Shown one piece after another: positions 14,743 to 21,779 of a stretch of 33,676 nt of DNA (position 1 is the first letter of the stretch; every line of letters begins with the position of its first letter). The stretch lies in the NCBI GenBank assembly GCA_020347705.1, contig CP070739.1, positions 2,017,820-2,051,495 of the forward strand. Reading direction: 5' to 3'. The stretch is from Methanomassiliicoccales archaeon. GTDB lineage: Archaea; Thermoplasmatota; Thermoplasmata; GCA-020350865. The position numbers and the translations under genes were made by a program. The notes below the pieces were generated by a model. The model had not been told where the DNA came from. It saw nothing but the letters and a program-made list of their open reading frames with translations, and searched no databases.

Positions 14743-15135
14743 TCAGATATCGCATGCAGTGGTTATGAACTCCACCTGCTTTATGCCCTTTATCTCCCTG
14801 ATTCTTTTTGTCAGGCCTTTTAGACGCGCGCCTTCTCCTTTTGCTATGAATATCTCCAGGCAGTTGGAATCATCCAAATGCATGTGTATATTGGTTTGGA
14901 TCTCCTCGAATTTATGGTGAAGATGGGATATCTCGGATTTGGGCCTGTTTTTTTCGTACAACACGATGATAACGACGATATTTCCCTCTATGGCCTCATC
15001 CCAAACATCCTCCCTTACGATGTTTCTTATAGCGTCTCTTAAGGCCTCCGATCGTGTGGTGTAACCTTTTCTGTGGGACACTTCATCGAATCTCTCAAGC
15101 AGGTTTTCGTTCACCGACATACTGATTATCGTCAT
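14743..15135 (-). CDS. nikR: Nickel-responsive ribbon-helix-helix regulator, NikR family
   Basis: 130 residues from ATG 15135, preceded by GGTGG at good spacing; GTG at 15144 is an alternative start. The N-terminus is a CopG/RHH DNA-binding domain (MTIISMSVNENLLERFDEVS, then GYTTRSEALRDAIR). The C-terminal ACT-like domain keeps all four nickel ligands of E. coli NikR (His76, His87, His89, Cys95) at a constant offset of three: His73, His84, His86 and Cys92 (HLHHKF ... NIHMHLDDSNCLEIF). A tetrameric Ni(II)-dependent repressor is expected. It is divergent from the membrane protein at 15243, and three TTTATTAA direct repeats lie between them, so that gene and nikR itself are the likely targets. 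Confidence 0.88.
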   Translation of the reverse strand: MTIISMSVNENLLERFDEVSHRKGYTTRSEALRDAIRNIVREDVWDEAIEGNIVVIIVLYEKNRPKSEISHLHHKFEEIQTNIHMHLDDSNCLEIFIAKGEGARLKGLTKRIREIKGIKQVEFITTACDI

Positions 15136-15152
15136 ATCTACCACCCTAACAT

Positions 15153-15228
15153 TTTATTAAGAATATGATAAATAGTATATAAAATTTATTAAAATAATGG
15201 AAAATCTTTAATATAAATAATTTATTAA
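15153..15228. promoter_or_regulatory. Divergent promoter with three TTTATTAA direct repeats, candidate NikR operator
   Basis: TTTATTAA occurs at 15153-15160, 15185-15192 and 15221-15228. The plus-strand TATA box TATAAATA (15212-15219) is 28 bases before ATG 15243, and the third repeat follows it directly. The minus-strand box TTTATATACT (about 15185-15176) predicts a nikR start near 15153, at the first repeat. The positions suit repression of both genes. The site does not resemble the E. coli NikR operator, and the region is AT-rich, so chance repeats are possible. Confidence 0.5.
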
Positions 15229-15242
15229 GAGAATTAGATTCA

Positions 15243-15953
15243 ATGAACTTGAAGGATATCGCCCACGAATTCAAGCATCACTTTCCCTTCACGGTGTTCA
15301 GTGCAGCCGCAGGGATCATCATAGTATCTATAATCTTTGTTATCCTCACTTCAATGCCTTTGGCCTCTGAAGTGAATGAAACCGCGGATGGGGATGAACA
15401 TGAGCACGAAGAAGGATTTGCGGAATCGACACATCGTTTATTTCATGTATTTCATCCTATCCATTGCCTCTTCAGTGCCTCGGCCACAACGGCCATGTTT
15501 TGGAGATACGATAAAAGACTGTTAAAATCCATTCTTATTGGTCTTTTAGGGTCGCTGGCATTCTGCGGAATAAGCGATATATTCTTGCCGTTCATCGGGG
15601 GTTCGATAATCGGTTTGGAGATGGAGCTGCACATCTGTCTAGTGGATCATCCTCTCTCCGTAGTTCCCTTCGCTGTTTTTGGAGTCATTGCAGGTTTGAC
15701 AGCTGCGGAGGTATTTACCAAGAGATCATCCACCATCTTCTCCCATTCGGGTCATGTCTTTGTGAGCACAATGGCATCGATATTGTACCTGACCACTTTC
15801 GGATTCATGGACTGGATGGAGAATATGTTCATAGTCTTCATAATAGTGGTCCTGGCAGTATTGATACCATGCTGCACGAGCGATGTCATTTTTCCGTTGC
15901 TTCTCGTGGACAAAAAGGACAAGCATTTTTGTGGAGGGGAATGCGAGGAATAG
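15243..15953 (+). CDS. His/Cys-rich polytopic membrane protein, candidate metal permease
   Basis: 236 residues with about six hydrophobic segments (near 18-38, 78-95, 97-118, 130-155, 168-190 and 193-212). After the first helix comes an acidic His-rich extracellular loop (DGDEHEHEE), then HRLFHVFHPIHCLFSASATTAMFW and a second His/Cys segment (MELHICLVDHP). Near the C-terminus are CCTSD in a helix and HFCGGECEE at the end. Such clusters suit binding of Ni, Co, Zn or Cu. I do not recognise a named transporter family; it is not NikA-E, NikMQO/CbiMQO or a P-type ATPase. Divergent nikR and the shared promoter region suggest nickel-controlled expression. The message is probably leaderless (TATA box 28 bases before ATG). 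Import versus export cannot be told from sequence. Confidence 0.75.
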   Translation: MNLKDIAHEFKHHFPFTVFSAAAGIIIVSIIFVILTSMPLASEVNETADGDEHEHEEGFAESTHRLFHVFHPIHCLFSASATTAMFWRYDKRLLKSILIGLLGSLAFCGISDIFLPFIGGSIIGLEMELHICLVDHPLSVVPFAVFGVIAGLTAAEVFTKRSSTIFSHSGHVFVSTMASILYLTTFGFMDWMENMFIVFIIVVLAVLIPCCTSDVIFPLLLVDKKDKHFCGGECEE

Positions 15954-16000: not shown

Positions 16001-16459
16001 CTAAATCCCATCTTTTTTATCAAGAAATTCCAAATCCAGCTCAATTAAGAAATCCCTTGGAAATATGAAATTTACTTTTTTCTTTATCCTCATTTGCGTT
16101 AATCTTCGATTTGTGGTGACAAAATAATTACATTCTGAAGCGAAATATGCATTGATATGAGGTAGATCGTCTTCATCATCTACCAGTTCACGATACCTAT
16201 CACCTATGGCATCGATTTCTTCCTTTCTTACAATATTTAGCCCCTGCATCGTCCAAATCAAGGTACGCATCCATGAAGCTGTGTCCTTAGAATATCTTGA
16301 TTTGATGTTATGCATCACTTCCTTGAAAGTATGAAACGAGACAACGGGAATGAATAATCCTTCGTTTGCAGCTTCGATCACCAGTTCTGAGTTACTAATT
16401 TCTTCCTCTAAAAAAATCAAGAAGATATTTGTGTCGAGGTAGGCTTTTATCAACTCCAT
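16001..16459 (-). CDS. PIN-domain ribonuclease toxin (VapC-like)
   Basis: 152 residues. The N-terminal YLDTNIFLIF carries the first catalytic Asp (Asp9) of PIN nucleases; the C-terminal acidic cluster DDEDDLPHINAYFAS and the YFVTTNRRL strand correspond to the later metal-binding positions (the usual T-x-D is T-T-N here). It overlaps the upstream ribbon-helix-helix gene by ten bases (16450-16459), the classic antitoxin-toxin arrangement. Expected activity is Mg-dependent cleavage of a specific RNA, neutralised by the partner. The target is unknown. Confidence 0.85.
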   Translation of the reverse strand: MELIKAYLDTNIFLIFLEEEISNSELVIEAANEGLFIPVVSFHTFKEVMHNIKSRYSKDTASWMRTLIWTMQGLNIVRKEEIDAIGDRYRELVDDEDDLPHINAYFASECNYFVTTNRRLTQMRIKKKVNFIFPRDFLIELDLEFLDKKDGI

Positions 16460-16701
16460 ATCTCCTTGTAAACAGCCTTTCTGGATTTCTTGGCTGACTT
16501 GAGAAGTTGTGTATGTGAGATTTTCTTTTTCCTCTTCTTTTTAAGATCTGCAAGAATTCTTTTCGAAGTTTCATGAATTTGTAAGCGTATAGCACTCTTG
16601 ATAAAATCTGTGCGGCTTGTGAAATATCCATTCTCTATAACCTCATCGATGAATTTGTATTCCGCTTCAGGCAATCTGACATGAGATACTTTAGACGGCA
16701 T
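16450..16701 (-). CDS. Ribbon-helix-helix antitoxin (VapB-like)
   Basis: 83 residues from ATG 16701; GTG at 16710 is an alternative start and neither has a clear ribosome binding site. The N-terminal beta strand VSHVRLPEAEYKFIDEVIENG and the helix FTSRTDFIKSAIR fit the RHH/CopG fold. The second half is very basic (ILADLKKKRKKKISHTQLLKSAKKS) and probably wraps the toxin or DNA. It overlaps the PIN toxin gene by ten bases. A minus-strand TATA-like AATTATAAATAA lies about 30 bases upstream, with a perfect palindrome between it and the gene, suggesting autorepression. Confidence 0.83.
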   Translation of the reverse strand: MPSKVSHVRLPEAEYKFIDEVIENGYFTSRTDFIKSAIRLQIHETSKRILADLKKKRKKKISHTQLLKSAKKSRKAVYKEIWS

Positions 16702-16720
16702 GTTAATCACTTTGTATACT

Positions 16721-16766: not shown

Positions 16767-17216
16767 TCATTTCCTATCACATCTCGGCCTTCTCCCAGTT
16801 TTGCTATACTGTTTAAAATGTGCAAGCCATTTTGGATCCTGCGGGGCCTCCCGTACGAACTCCACGAACTTGTTCAATTGTTTCATGGTCTGCGAAGAGA
16901 CATGATGCTCGATTTGGCAGGCATCGATTTCTGCATCCTCTCTTTTTACTCCGATGATCTCAAGAAACTCGGCCAAGGTGTTATGCTTTTTCATCAGTTC
17001 TCTGGCCATTTTGTCCCCATCCTTCGTAAGAGTAACACCGCGGTACGGTACGTAATTTACCAGATTCCCATCCGCTAATTTTTGCAGCATCTCTGTAACA
17101 CTGGGGGGCGCCACACCCAATGTTAAGGCGAGATCGTTCGTATGCACATGGCCGTGCTTCTGCTGCAAGGCATAAATCACCTCTATATATTCCTCAGCGG
17201 TTTTTGATTTCATCAT
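16767..17216 (-). CDS. DtxR/MntR-family metal-dependent transcriptional regulator
   Basis: 149 residues from ATG 17216, seven bases after AGGAGG; longer starts up to 17264 lack this. An N-terminal winged helix (KTAEEYIEVIYAL through GVTLTKDGDKMA, about 1-70) precedes a dimerisation domain with metal ligands His78, Cys100, Glu103 and His104. The C-x-x-E-H set at DACQIEHH matches the iron-type DtxR site (Cys102-Glu105-His106). No SH3/FeoA domain, so it is the short form. It lies 63 bases downstream of the DtxR-FeoA fusion gene on the same strand, at the end of the feoB cluster. The palindromes upstream of feoB are the obvious candidate binding sites. Confidence 0.87.
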   Translation of the reverse strand: MMKSKTAEEYIEVIYALQQKHGHVHTNDLALTLGVAPPSVTEMLQKLADGNLVNYVPYRGVTLTKDGDKMARELMKKHNTLAEFLEIIGVKREDAEIDACQIEHHVSSQTMKQLNKFVEFVREAPQDPKWLAHFKQYSKTGRRPRCDRK

Positions 17217-17279
17217 GTTTTCCCTCCTTCTACCGGAAGAATTTGTCCTCTTTAGTCCTTTCATACCATGCGTCCCCCT

Positions 17280-17921
17280 TTATTCGGTTCGTACAAATAT
17301 GCTCGATGCGATTTCCTTGTCCACCGCAATTTGAGTCCTGCCAATCGAAAAAACGAAAGAAGGCGACTTTTGGATCAGAGTTATTTTGCGGCCGGGAAGT
17401 ATGCCCATGGCCATGAGCTTTTTTAGGGTATTGTGGTCTTCGGCCTGAATATAAATCACCTTCCCCTTTCCTCCGCGTTTGATTTCGCTTAAGGGATGAA
17501 TGACGCGACCTGCTTTCTGACGGCGTTCCCTGCAGCATCGCCCTTTTGGAATTCTGCGACCATGCGGGCATTCGCGAGGATGGCCCAGGAGAGTGCATAC
17601 ACCTTCCTCCACCTCTCCGGAGATGAGCAGATGCTCGAATCTACATGCAGGAGATTCCATTTTTTTCTTGCTCATGTGTATCAAATCATGAAAGAGCCGC
17701 TCCGCGAGTCTATGCCTTCTGATAACACCCTCTGCCACCTCTTTTCCCTTGGTGGTTAACCTGATACCATTTTTATCTTGTTTTATGAGATTCAGATCCT
17801 TTAACTCCTCAAACACGGTTTTTTCGTCGATTTTATCCCCTTTAAAATGGCTCTTCTCCTTTTCGATCTGTGAAATCCAAAGGCTCTCCAAAACTTCTTC
17901 TGCCTCCTCTGATATATTCAT
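17280..17921 (-). CDS. DtxR-like regulator fused to a C-terminal FeoA domain
   Basis: 213 residues. About 1-65 is a short winged-helix region; 66-110 is the metal-binding/dimerisation helix with C-x-x-E-H at Cys93, Glu96, His97 (PACRFEHLL); a GHPRECPHGRRIP motif at about 113-125 is typical of iron-dependent DtxR proteins that carry a third domain. About 140-213 is a FeoA/SH3-like domain (GGKGKVIYIQ, MGILPGRKITLIQ). It overlaps the zinc-ribbon gene by four bases (ATGA), so it is translated in the feoB operon. It may sense Fe(II) and also supply the FeoA function, since no separate feoA is present. An extra CC pair at 129-130 could add a metal ligand. Confidence 0.85.
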   Translation of the reverse strand: MNISEEAEEVLESLWISQIEKEKSHFKGDKIDEKTVFEELKDLNLIKQDKNGIRLTTKGKEVAEGVIRRHRLAERLFHDLIHMSKKKMESPACRFEHLLISGEVEEGVCTLLGHPRECPHGRRIPKGRCCRERRQKAGRVIHPLSEIKRGGKGKVIYIQAEDHNTLKKLMAMGILPGRKITLIQKSPSFVFSIGRTQIAVDKEIASSIFVRTE

Positions 17922-18124
17922 AAATTGGCCTCCTTTATTTTTCTCTTTCTCCTATCACGAAGTAACTTTATAAGCTTTGGTTCAGGAAGATGTTCATACC
18001 CGCAGTTGGGACAGCATAACTTTTCACATGACGATATTGGACATGAAGAGCAAGCGCTTTCGGCCTCCTTTTCAGAGAACTCAAACCCGCAGAATTGGCA
18101 TTTGTACGTTCGCACTTCGCTCAT
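17918..18124 (-). CDS. Small zinc-ribbon protein of the feo operon
   Basis: 68 residues. It starts at ATG 18124 inside the feoB stop (ATGA overlap at 18121-18124) and its own stop overlaps the next start in the same way (17918-17921). It has C-x2-C (KCQFCGF), then Cys25, Cys28, Cys33, Cys37 and a second knuckle CCPNCGY, followed by a basic tail (LRDRRKRKIKEANL). Two zinc or iron sites are likely. Bacterial feo operons often contain a small Cys-rich protein (FeoC or a FeoB-associated protein); this may be an archaeal counterpart, but homology is not shown. Confidence 0.8.
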   Translation of the reverse strand: MSEVRTYKCQFCGFEFSEKEAESACSSCPISSCEKLCCPNCGYEHLPEPKLIKLLRDRRKRKIKEANL

Positions 18125-20160
18125 ATCAATACCCCCAATGTGGTGAGTATGATATTGAGTAGGTAACCTACAAAAAAGGCGAAGGGAAAGATGAATGCGA
18201 TGATTCCAAGTGTGATCTTTTTTCCGCGCTCTTTGTACATCATCATCACCTGGGCGATGCATGGTATGAACAGGGTCAATGTGACCGCAGTAACGGTAAG
18301 CTGTGCTATACTGAGTGTGCCACTCATATCATAAAGACCTGCTGCACCGTAATCGCGTCTAAAGAAACCGTAGATGAAAACTGGGGCCGCGGAGCCGGGA
18401 AGACCAAGGGCACCCATGAGAGGCTCCAATCCCCGAACCAAAGAAGAGAACATACCGGTGATATCTCCGAGCCACAGTAAAACACTTGCGACTATGAATA
18501 GGGGCAAAACCTCCTTGAAGTACCAAATCATCCTCGTATAGGTTTTGACAAGCACATTGGACAGTTTGGGAACCCGAAGTGGAGGCAATTCCATGAAGAA
18601 CTGGGGTTTGCCCCCAGGAATCAAATTTGAGCCCAGCCAGCCTATGAAAAGCATCACAATGAAGATCACCAAAGCCCAAGTAAAAAGTGCGAGGACACTG
18701 ATGGATAGTACTCCGAATATAACGCCCAATTGGGCCGAGCATGGAATGGCCAAGGCCAAAAGAAGGGTGGCCAGAACCTGCTCCTTTTTTGTCTCCAGAG
18801 TGCGGGTGACCAAGGTCCCCATGGTGTCACATCCCAGTCCCAGGGTCATTGGTATCACAGCCCTGCCTGAAAGCCCGATTCGCTTGAAGATCCTATCGAT
18901 TAGTAGTGAGAGCCGTGGAAGGTATCCCGAGTCCTCGAGCAACGAGAATGCCAAAAAGAAAATCCCTACTATTGGAAAAATTATGGCAACAGCATATCTC
19001 AATCCCAAGGTTATGATTCCAAACTCACCGCCTATTAAACCCCGAGCCGGCTCCCATGGCACATGATCATTTAGAAAACCGTTTAGCGCAGGATTGATAT
19101 GGTCTTCGAAGATGTTTCCCTCTATGAAATCCACGAGCTCGCCTGCACCATTCACACCCACCAAGAAGTATAGTCCGAGGATCACCATTATCAGGATAGG
19201 AATACCTGTCGAAGGACGTATTAAGGCCCGATTGATTCGCTCTTTTAAGTCCATAGGTTTTTCGCCTTCGGAAATGACGGTTCGATCCACCAGCTTGTCG
19301 ATCTGTTTCTGCCTTGAATTTGTAATCACATAATCCAAAGGCCTTGCATACATTTCTGAAACATCGTCGATAATTTGATTAACTTTATCGAATACCTCAG
19401 GGTCCTTCTGTTTAACCAGGGATTCGATATCAGAATCCTTTTGAAGAAGCAAAAGGGCCACGGCCCTCTTTCGAATCGGGTATTGGCCCTGAAGTAAATT
19501 CTCTATCTTTAAAACCGTACTCTCGATCTCGGGTCCCAACCTCACGATATGTCCTGGTGCAAGTCCAACCTTGAGGGCTGTTGATATTACCTTTCTCAGC
19601 TCCTTTAGTCCCTCTTTCTTTGTGGCCGCGGTCATAACCACAGGTGTTCTCAGTGTTTCTTCCAATGCGTTTATATCGAACTCCATTCCTTCAGCTTGTG
19701 CCTCGTCGATCATGTTGAGAACCGTAATCACAGGCAGACCGGTTTCGATGAGCTGAAGGGAAAGATGCAGCATTCGATCGATGTTCTTCGCGTCTAGGAT
19801 GTTGATGACCAAACTCGGTTTCTCTGTGAGTAGAATCTCTCTTGCCACTCTTTCCTCTTCGGTTATAGGAAGTAGGGAGTACATCCCAGGCGTGTCTATG
19901 ATCTCAACCTTCTTTCCTGATATCTCTGTTCTTCCCCTATCCACGGCAACTGTGGTGCCCGGGTAATTTGAAACAACAACATAGGCCCCTGTGAGGTCGT
20001 TAAAAATCACGCTCTTTCCCACGTTTGGATAACCCACAAGAAGGATTTTGTGTGTCTCTTTTTCTTGGTCCTGCTCCACACCCTTATTTTCAATAGAAGA
20101 TTTGGCTTTTGATTTGTGAACCTTGCGGGACATGGTGTTCAGCCCTTTATTCCCCCTCAT
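18121..20160 (-). CDS. feoB: Ferrous iron transport protein B
   Basis: 679 residues, normal for FeoB. The cytosolic GTPase domain has G1 GYPNVGKS (about 43-50), the switch YPGTTV, G3 DTPGMYSL and G4 NMID. It is followed by the helical GDI-like region and a membrane domain with two Gate repeats and the FeoB C-terminal region (PMTLGLGCDTMGT, PGSAAPVFIYGFFRRDYGAAG, FIPCIAQ). It imports Fe(II). ATG 20160 has no ribosome binding site; ATG 20133 is an alternative and would trim nine residues from the variable N-terminus. It is the first gene of an operon with ATGA overlaps to the zinc-ribbon and DtxR-FeoA genes. Two DtxR-type palindromes between TATA box and start predict iron-dependent repression. 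Confidence 0.95.
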   Translation of the reverse strand: MRGNKGLNTMSRKVHKSKAKSSIENKGVEQDQEKETHKILLVGYPNVGKSVIFNDLTGAYVVVSNYPGTTVAVDRGRTEISGKKVEIIDTPGMYSLLPITEEERVAREILLTEKPSLVINILDAKNIDRMLHLSLQLIETGLPVITVLNMIDEAQAEGMEFDINALEETLRTPVVMTAATKKEGLKELRKVISTALKVGLAPGHIVRLGPEIESTVLKIENLLQGQYPIRKRAVALLLLQKDSDIESLVKQKDPEVFDKVNQIIDDVSEMYARPLDYVITNSRQKQIDKLVDRTVISEGEKPMDLKERINRALIRPSTGIPILIMVILGLYFLVGVNGAGELVDFIEGNIFEDHINPALNGFLNDHVPWEPARGLIGGEFGIITLGLRYAVAIIFPIVGIFFLAFSLLEDSGYLPRLSLLIDRIFKRIGLSGRAVIPMTLGLGCDTMGTLVTRTLETKKEQVLATLLLALAIPCSAQLGVIFGVLSISVLALFTWALVIFIVMLFIGWLGSNLIPGGKPQFFMELPPLRVPKLSNVLVKTYTRMIWYFKEVLPLFIVASVLLWLGDITGMFSSLVRGLEPLMGALGLPGSAAPVFIYGFFRRDYGAAGLYDMSGTLSIAQLTVTAVTLTLFIPCIAQVMMMYKERGKKITLGIIAFIFPFAFFVGYLLNIILTTLGVLI

Positions 20161-20267: not shown

Positions 20268-20774
20268 TTATAATCCTACTTCTTTTGATTTTTTCCACAT
20301 ATGATAGTAGATAAGAAGAATACCCCCTATAAAAAATACAAGGATCGAGATTAGAATAATGATTCGAATTGTCTCGATATTTTCAAGAAAAAATGTATTA
20401 ACCGGGTTCTCAGAAGAGGATGAATCGCTTCCACTTAATTCCCTTAGTTCCCTCAATGCCTCTGATGCTTCTGCTAATGCTTCCACTAACCGAGTTTGGA
20501 GATACATATATACCCAAAAATAGTCAGTAATAAATGTAAATATACCCATTAATAAAAATCTTTTTTCATAATCGGTTCGCTTCGAAATATGATATAGGAT
20601 GTAAAACATCATTGCATAACCACAAAGTATAGCCATAATTAAAATCTCAGGAGGCGGCAGTGACCAGGTTGTATAAATGAAACCCAAACCTAATATAATG
20701 AAACATAGCAGAAAAATTACCATAGCAATTTGTATCACGGGAGATATGGTAATTTGTTTTTTATCTTTAATAAT
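20268..20774 (-). CDS. Small four-helix membrane protein, unusual start
   Basis: About 168 residues. Hydrophobic helices lie at about 13-33, 45-63, 74-95 and 138-158, with an acidic Ser-rich segment between the last two (ALAEASEALRELRELSGSDSSSSE). Not recognised as a family. Start: the first conventional codon, GTG 20738, has no ribosome binding site, whereas AGGAGG at 20782-20787 stands eight bases before an in-frame ATT at 20774. The extension adds IIKDKKQITISP, a plausible cytoplasmic lead-in to helix 1. An ATT start is therefore proposed; a mutated ATG is the alternative. Confidence 0.65.
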   Translation of the reverse strand: MIKDKKQITISPVIQIAMVIFLLCFIILGLGFIYTTWSLPPPEILIMAILCGYAMMFYILYHISKRTDYEKRFLLMGIFTFITDYFWVYMYLQTRLVEALAEASEALRELRELSGSDSSSSENPVNTFFLENIETIRIIILISILVFFIGGILLIYYHMWKKSKEVGL

Positions 20775-21728: not shown

Positions 21729-21779
21729 CTCTTATTAAAAACCTATATACTAATAATTAATAATGTAATATTTATCAAA

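Follow-up and report, generated by a model that had tools for sequence, protein, structure and literature searches.

A NikR-linked family of small six-helix membrane proteins as candidate transition-metal permeases

Within a 33,676-nucleotide stretch (the window) of the genome of a Methanomassiliicoccales archaeon (G000, 3.22 Mb, a single contig), a nikR gene lies head-to-head with, and 98 bp from, the gene for a membrane protein of an uncatalogued family, here called P1 (Table 1). The existence of this family, its conserved residues, its internal repeat, its head-to-head arrangement with nikR and a conserved element over the P1 TATA box are shown. Since an uncatalogued family, repeated pairing with metalloregulators and a conserved promoter site occur together, P1 is probably a new transporter of nickel or a related metal. 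We favour, by a modest margin, the full reading in which P1 represents a new family of metalloregulated transition-metal permeases whose NikR branch handles nickel, probably as an importer; substrate, direction and transport itself are inferred. Taken separately, each part of this reading is better supported: by inference, the family likely consists of divalent transition-metal permeases, nickel is the likely substrate in the NikR-linked branch, and import is the likely direction.

Table 1. Features of the window and loci referred to in the text; positions are those of the window unless a locus is named.
Feature	Position or loci	Strand	Details and basis
nikR	14743..15144	-	133 aa, GTG start (ATG at 15135 possible); Pfam, alignment, PDB relatives
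Extra TTATTAA half-site near nikR start	15154..15160	.	32 bp from left operator half-site
Putative NikR operator, TTATTAA-AATAATGGAAAATCT-TTAATAT	15186..15214	.	Half-sites 22 bp centre to centre
TATA-like box of P1, TATAAATA	15212..15219	+	About 27 bp before ATG; sequence
Extra TTATTAA copy downstream of TATA-like box	15222..15228	.	Position inconsistent in relatives
P1, six-helix putative metal permease	15243..15953	+	236 aa; ORF, family alignments, structure model
DtxR	16767-17264	-	Pfam
DtxR C-terminal/FeoA fusion	17280-17921	-	Pfam
FeoB	18121-20160	-	Pfam
nikR head-to-head with P1	window, L022, L023, L025, L027, L031, L034, L035, L088		
P1 homologues on viral-collection contigs	L085:5001-5600; L086:4998-5267		
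VDH/VEH-pair loci	L087:4302-4945, L097/L072:1042-1699, L058, L059, L063, L069, L071, L079, L081		

Searches of Pfam, NCBIfam, PHROGs and plasmids returned nothing for P1, nor did a profile search of PDB sequences up to E of 10; Pfam searches with 16 members returned noise only and no known family. A first-pass annotation, made from sequence alone, had described a divergent six-helix neighbour of nikR outside the known nickel transporter families. Both points held, the former by the open reading frame and an AlphaFold model with six long helices, the latter by the absence of any Pfam or NCBIfam family. The same annotation had proposed a metal permease, refutable by a clear match to a non-metal family; the profile searches matched no known family, metal or non-metal, and the permease reading is supported rather than refuted, with transport, metal and direction remaining inferences.

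Alignment of 53 members reveals identity throughout at H74, D112, H130, H168, H171, S175, P209, C210, D214 and P218, and in 52 of them at H13, H71, T82, C211 and S213; S78 and S111 are also among the invariant or near-invariant residues. Metal-binding residue types are kept in 52-53 of the 53. The five motifs originally quoted for the window protein (DGDEHEHEE, HPIHC, ELHIC, CCTSD and HFCGGECEE) are all present, and as conserved features they held only in part: DGDEHEHEE and HFCGGECEE are not conserved across the family, nor are the cysteines of HPIHC and ELHIC, and the invariant elements are HxxH, SD, H130, a further HxxH, and CCxSD. Many bacterial members carry His/Cys-rich tails of their own. 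The intramembrane motif is doubled, reading HxxHxxxS...SDxxxP in one copy and HxxHxxxS...CCxSDxxxP in the other. This reflects an internal repeat of residues 57-116 against 156-218, in which the H, H, S, S, D and P positions coincide. The repeat profile scores 21.5 versus 8.0 +/- 1.3 for column shuffles (none of 300 as high), and the reversed half scores 10.6. With HH-suite and a smaller alignment the repeat is weak, covering 11 columns of the SDxxxP part only at a probability of 12-22%. Since each unit has three helices, the copies are expected to lie antiparallel in the membrane, an arrangement we infer.

The neighbouring regulator is a bona fide NikR by sequence, with NikR_C (7e-17) and RHH_1 (2e-5) both over Pfam cut-offs and PDB relatives that include 2bj1. 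The claim that it retains all four nickel ligands also held, by alignment of the ligand columns (H, HxH and C), which we take to be those identified from the E. coli NikR structure; in an alignment of 21 NikRs these columns are intact in all nine P1-adjacent proteins. P1-linked NikR resembles known NikR (PDB 2bj1, 1q5v) in its RHH and NikR_C domains, its four ligand columns and the 22-bp spacing of its putative operator half-sites, but differs in its N-terminal beta-strand, its TTAWTAA half-sites and its new, apparently dedicated target. The strand reads I[IV]S[IVLM]S or nearly so in the nine P1-adjacent proteins (IISMS in the window), against mostly RFGVS, RVGVS or RAGVS in the NikRs of the same genomes that are not P1-linked. 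In the NikR class this strand makes DNA contact, so the P1-linked subtype is consistent with an altered half-site. The second, canonical NikR of G000 (L089; G000:C1:2190000-2201000) lies directly before hypB and hypF; hence the organism appears to mature a [NiFe] hydrogenase and to need nickel. In several P1-bearing genomes the canonical NikR adjoins a metal-type ABC transporter, as annotated by eye.

The intergenic region had been noted for three TTTATTAA repeats, and these are indeed present, at 15153, 15185 and 15221. The sequence matches at 7 places in the whole window, where 2.7 would be expected, which makes three copies within 76 bp unusual. As an operator, however, the triple direct repeat failed; it is replaced by an inverted pair, TTATTAA-N15-TTAATAT, built from the second copy and keeping its spacing in nikR/P1 loci. 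The pattern TTAWTAA-N15-TTAWTAA occurs with at most one mismatch in all nine nikR/P1 intergenic regions, whereas none of the upstream regions of nine P1 members lacking an adjacent nikR contains it (three or more mismatches each). When spacings of 0 to 35 were scanned, N15 was clearly best (summed mismatches 5, versus 9 for the next-best), and the next-best spacing, 33 bp, reuses half-sites in related loci. At L025 and L027 an equally good neighbouring pair was reported, the pair at the shared position also having one mismatch. An individual site is no more than moderately improbable (0 to 82 of 2000 shuffles), and six of the nine loci are closely related and weigh as about one; taken jointly, the window, L022, L023 and L027, which represent four divergent lineages, gave a sum that no shuffle set out of 500 attained, whichever of 23 spacings was tried. 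The strength of the operator evidence thus lies in the shared spacing and not in individual sites. An identical 22-bp centre-to-centre spacing separates the half-sites of the NikR operator of E. coli, GTATGA-N16-TCATAC (PMC7055735).

The right half-site (15208-15214) overlaps the TATA-like box of P1, and NikR is therefore expected to repress P1, an inference for which there are no binding or expression data. The short distance from this box to the P1 ATG makes a leaderless mRNA likely, again by inference. A genome-wide scan allowing one mismatch returned 17 operator matches versus 27 for a reversed control, so no wider NikR regulon can be claimed; by inference from this weak scan, the P1-linked NikR seems to be dedicated to its own divergent promoter. 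Two one-mismatch matches to the operator pattern also fall elsewhere in the window, at 20527-20555 (about 370 bp before the FeoB start) and at 21732-21763; such matches are at chance level genome-wide.

P1 is sparsely distributed: within its own phylum (Thermoplasmatota) it occurs in 16 of the 389 genomes, and 37 of 392 genomes of a Planctomycetota group centred on a Phycisphaerae MAG also have it. Among the 60 nearest genomes searched, 59 lack it, G000 itself being the exception, and G001, a genus-mate of G000, has none. The archaeal loci number 16, one of which (G166) is truncated just upstream of P1, leaving 15 readable upstream flanks; the 37 bacterial loci examined are L002 and L150-L185, with a partial match in G441 excluded. 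Two archaeal candidates were rejected. The G072 candidate (E=1.5e-4) proved to be another protein, of 102 aa, encoded next to a canonical NikR; its removal lowered the count of P1 genomes from 17 to 16, and a link between it and a P1 half-repeat is unsupported (hhalign probability 3.4%; hmmsearch E of 4e-5 to 0.3 for five sequences). A weak match in G077 was dropped, being absent on repeat search. In a viral collection, where a first scan had found none, a profile scan recovered two P1 homologues. One lies on a 458-kb contig with an adjoining Ku gene, and the other on a 5.3-kb contig whose remaining genes look phage-structural by eye.

The first-pass annotation had made its reading depend on co-occurrence with nikR elsewhere, and on this count too it is not refuted: nikR is immediately head-to-head with P1, with a shared putative operator, in nine of the 15 readable archaeal loci. 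At genome level co-occurrence is a weak argument because NikR_C is common (270 of the 389 phylum genomes, and 14 of the 16 P1-bearing archaeal ones, G226 and G281 having none); it is adjacency that carries weight. The remaining six readable archaeal loci and all 37 bacterial loci lack an adjacent NikR, and in some of these other metalloregulator families take its place beside P1. A DtxR-family gene lies directly upstream of P1 on the same strand in L026, and in L024 P1 and FeoB converge, a DtxR-like match lying on the far side of FeoB. A Fur-family gene lies directly downstream in six of the 37 bacterial loci, several of them overlapping or touching P1, and FUR was confirmed by Pfam in all four Fur-type neighbours tested. 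Three further bacterial loci (L151, L153 and L154) have an RHH-like protein upstream with a CxxC...C...H...CxxC tail; the one tested has no Pfam match and a weak NCBIfam RHH match, and this partner could conceivably be a new type of metalloregulator. In total, 19 of 53 cellular P1 loci adjoin a metalloregulator or likely metalloregulator. ZIP genes occur near two P1 loci, as separate genes. In the P1 tree, NikR-linked members fall in three separate places and Fur-linked members in one cluster, and well-supported branches force at least four changes of regulator label. Near the nikR/P1 pair of the window, iron-uptake genes occupy 16767..20160 on the minus strand. Also on that strand are overlapping RHH_8 and PIN_3 genes (16001-16459 and 16450-16710), likely a toxin-antitoxin pair.

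Fold comparison pointed to TRIC channels, although we do not claim membership, as the top structural rows are TRIC but there is no sequence match. AlphaFold was run twice on one four-sequence alignment, with either the window P1 or L085 as first sequence, giving pLDDT of 75.8 and 80.4 and pTM of 0.78 and 0.81; because the alignment is common to both, the two models are not independent. In VIA, TRIC chains fill the seven top-ranked rows for each model (Z 10.3-6.3 and 9.7-6.5; 2.9-4.0 A over 127-145 residues), the next rows having Z of 5.9 and 5.8. A Z of about 10 over some 135 residues falls short of the value of about 13 recommended by the tool for helical bundles, yet exceeds the other rows by a wide margin. 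For the first model Foldseek gave TRIC a probability of 0.97, though with E=1.0, and for the second TRIC was missing from the 50 rows displayed; on its own it found nothing at E<=0.001 for either. The TRIC family PF03458 matched neither P1 nor any of 16 members at E<=1, and was not found in 60 relatives.

TRIC proteins have seven helices, arranged as two inverted three-helix bundles plus TM7 (PMC5477506). P1 resembles TRIC / UPF0126 (PF03458) in having two three-helix units, their inverted orientation being inferred for P1, but it has six helices, of which 2-6 align with TRIC 1-5. Circular permutation, with P1 helix 1 replacing TRIC helix 6, is a possibility that we offer as a hypothesis only. 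Whereas TRIC carries K+ and its prokaryotic members have glycine-rich (GGG) kinks in TM2 and TM5, the matching P1 helices have no GGG; SD and CCxSD stand in its place, and the conserved helices are lined with His, Asp and Cys.

Known nickel/cobalt membrane carriers include NiCoT / NicO, HupE-UreJ and CbiM-NikM, some of them NikR-linked (PMC2667541). Intramembrane His and Asp residues occur in some nickel carriers. P1 matches neither PF03824 (NiCoT / NicO) nor PF01891 (CbiM/NikM), nor PF02535 (ZIP), nor HupE/UreJ in Pfam (noise only for 16 members), and unlike these nickel/cobalt carriers it has the doubled motif HxxHxxxS...SDxxxP. In the inspected archaeal loci no ATPase partner was seen next to P1. 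Among 18 genomes tested, CbiM occurs only in G000 and G001 and NicO in none; apart from G000, the P1-bearing archaeal genomes (15) and the Phycisphaerae MAG thus have neither, the background rate of absence being unmeasured. G000 carries CbiMNQO as well as P1, which counts against our reading.

During the survey another uncatalogued pair of membrane proteins, both small (about 102-113 aa, with a VDH/VEH motif), was observed beside canonical nikR, at eight of 30 NikR_C loci (seven divergent, one convergent) plus L087, with lar genes near some of these loci. Five proteins of this type that were tested showed no Pfam family above cut-off. The pair may be another nickel-linked membrane system, a tentative assignment, and is apparently unrelated to P1.

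We envision P1 as the founder of a group of small six-helix secondary permeases with a core of about 200 aa for divalent transition metals, the NikR-linked branch, window included, most likely comprising Ni(II) importers. The core would be a duplicated three-helix unit with HxxHxxxS on the second helix and SDxxxP on the third; from the placement of the motifs in both copies, we infer that a metal path runs through the centre, between the two halves, lined by four His, two Asp and the second copy's Cys pair. When nickel is sufficient, Ni-NikR bound at the putative operator would block the P1 TATA box and switch the permease off; under nickel scarcity NikR would dissociate and leaderless P1 mRNA would be made.

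Other readings must be weighed against this one. That the substrate of P1 is a different divalent metal (Fe, Mn, Zn or Co), the family being broad transition-metal permeases that NikR merely coordinates with nickel status, is a real possibility. It is supported by the Fur (6 loci), DtxR (1) and Cys-tailed RHH-like (3) neighbours of other members, by the iron genes near the window P1 and by FeoB beside L024; against it, the window and eight other loci have a dedicated NikR subtype with a full nickel site and a putative operator at the P1 promoter. An exporter or detoxification channel, activated by NikR or relieved at high nickel, seems improbable. H. pylori NikR is an activator as well as a repressor (PMC9860126), and exporters too can have His/Cys-rich tails, but an element over the P1 TATA box suits repression, and the other partners are of the Fur/DtxR type, not the CsoR/RcnR/ArsR type. 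The Fur and DtxR families are mostly uptake repressors.

We likewise consider it doubtful that P1 does not transport at all and instead uses a metal site as a sensor, chaperone or enzyme in the membrane. In favour of this, no transporter matches the sequence, transport assay data are lacking, and the invariant HxxH, SD and CC might form a catalytic metal site; yet the duplicated three-helix unit and helical architecture are typical of channels and carriers, TRIC came first in both fold comparisons, and no catalytic domain was found. A bolder proposal goes further than we would commit to and is clearly less likely than not: P1 proteins would be cross-domain selective transition-metal permeases with an inverted-repeat core resembling that of TRIC, perhaps circularly permuted. 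A path of His, Asp and Cys would stand where TRIC has its glycine-kinked K+ pore, and the family would supply nickel to archaea in which classical importers are missing. NikR, DtxR, Fur and an RHH-type Cys sensor would each have captured its control in succession.

The reading we prefer remains a metalloregulated permease family with a nickel-importing NikR branch. A permease under a metalloregulator is a known kind of system; it is the permease family that is new, and we found no description of it in the open-access literature searched. According to a survey of nickel use from 2009, 7 archaea and 62 bacteria use nickel without having a recognised nickel transporter, and archaea have only three nickel/cobalt transporter families (PMC2667541). 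Lying outside Pfam and accompanied by a recognisable NikR site, the P1 family is a testable candidate for part of this gap. The family also makes a compact, duplicated metal path available for study and, if our reading is true, would extend a channel-type fold to transition metals.
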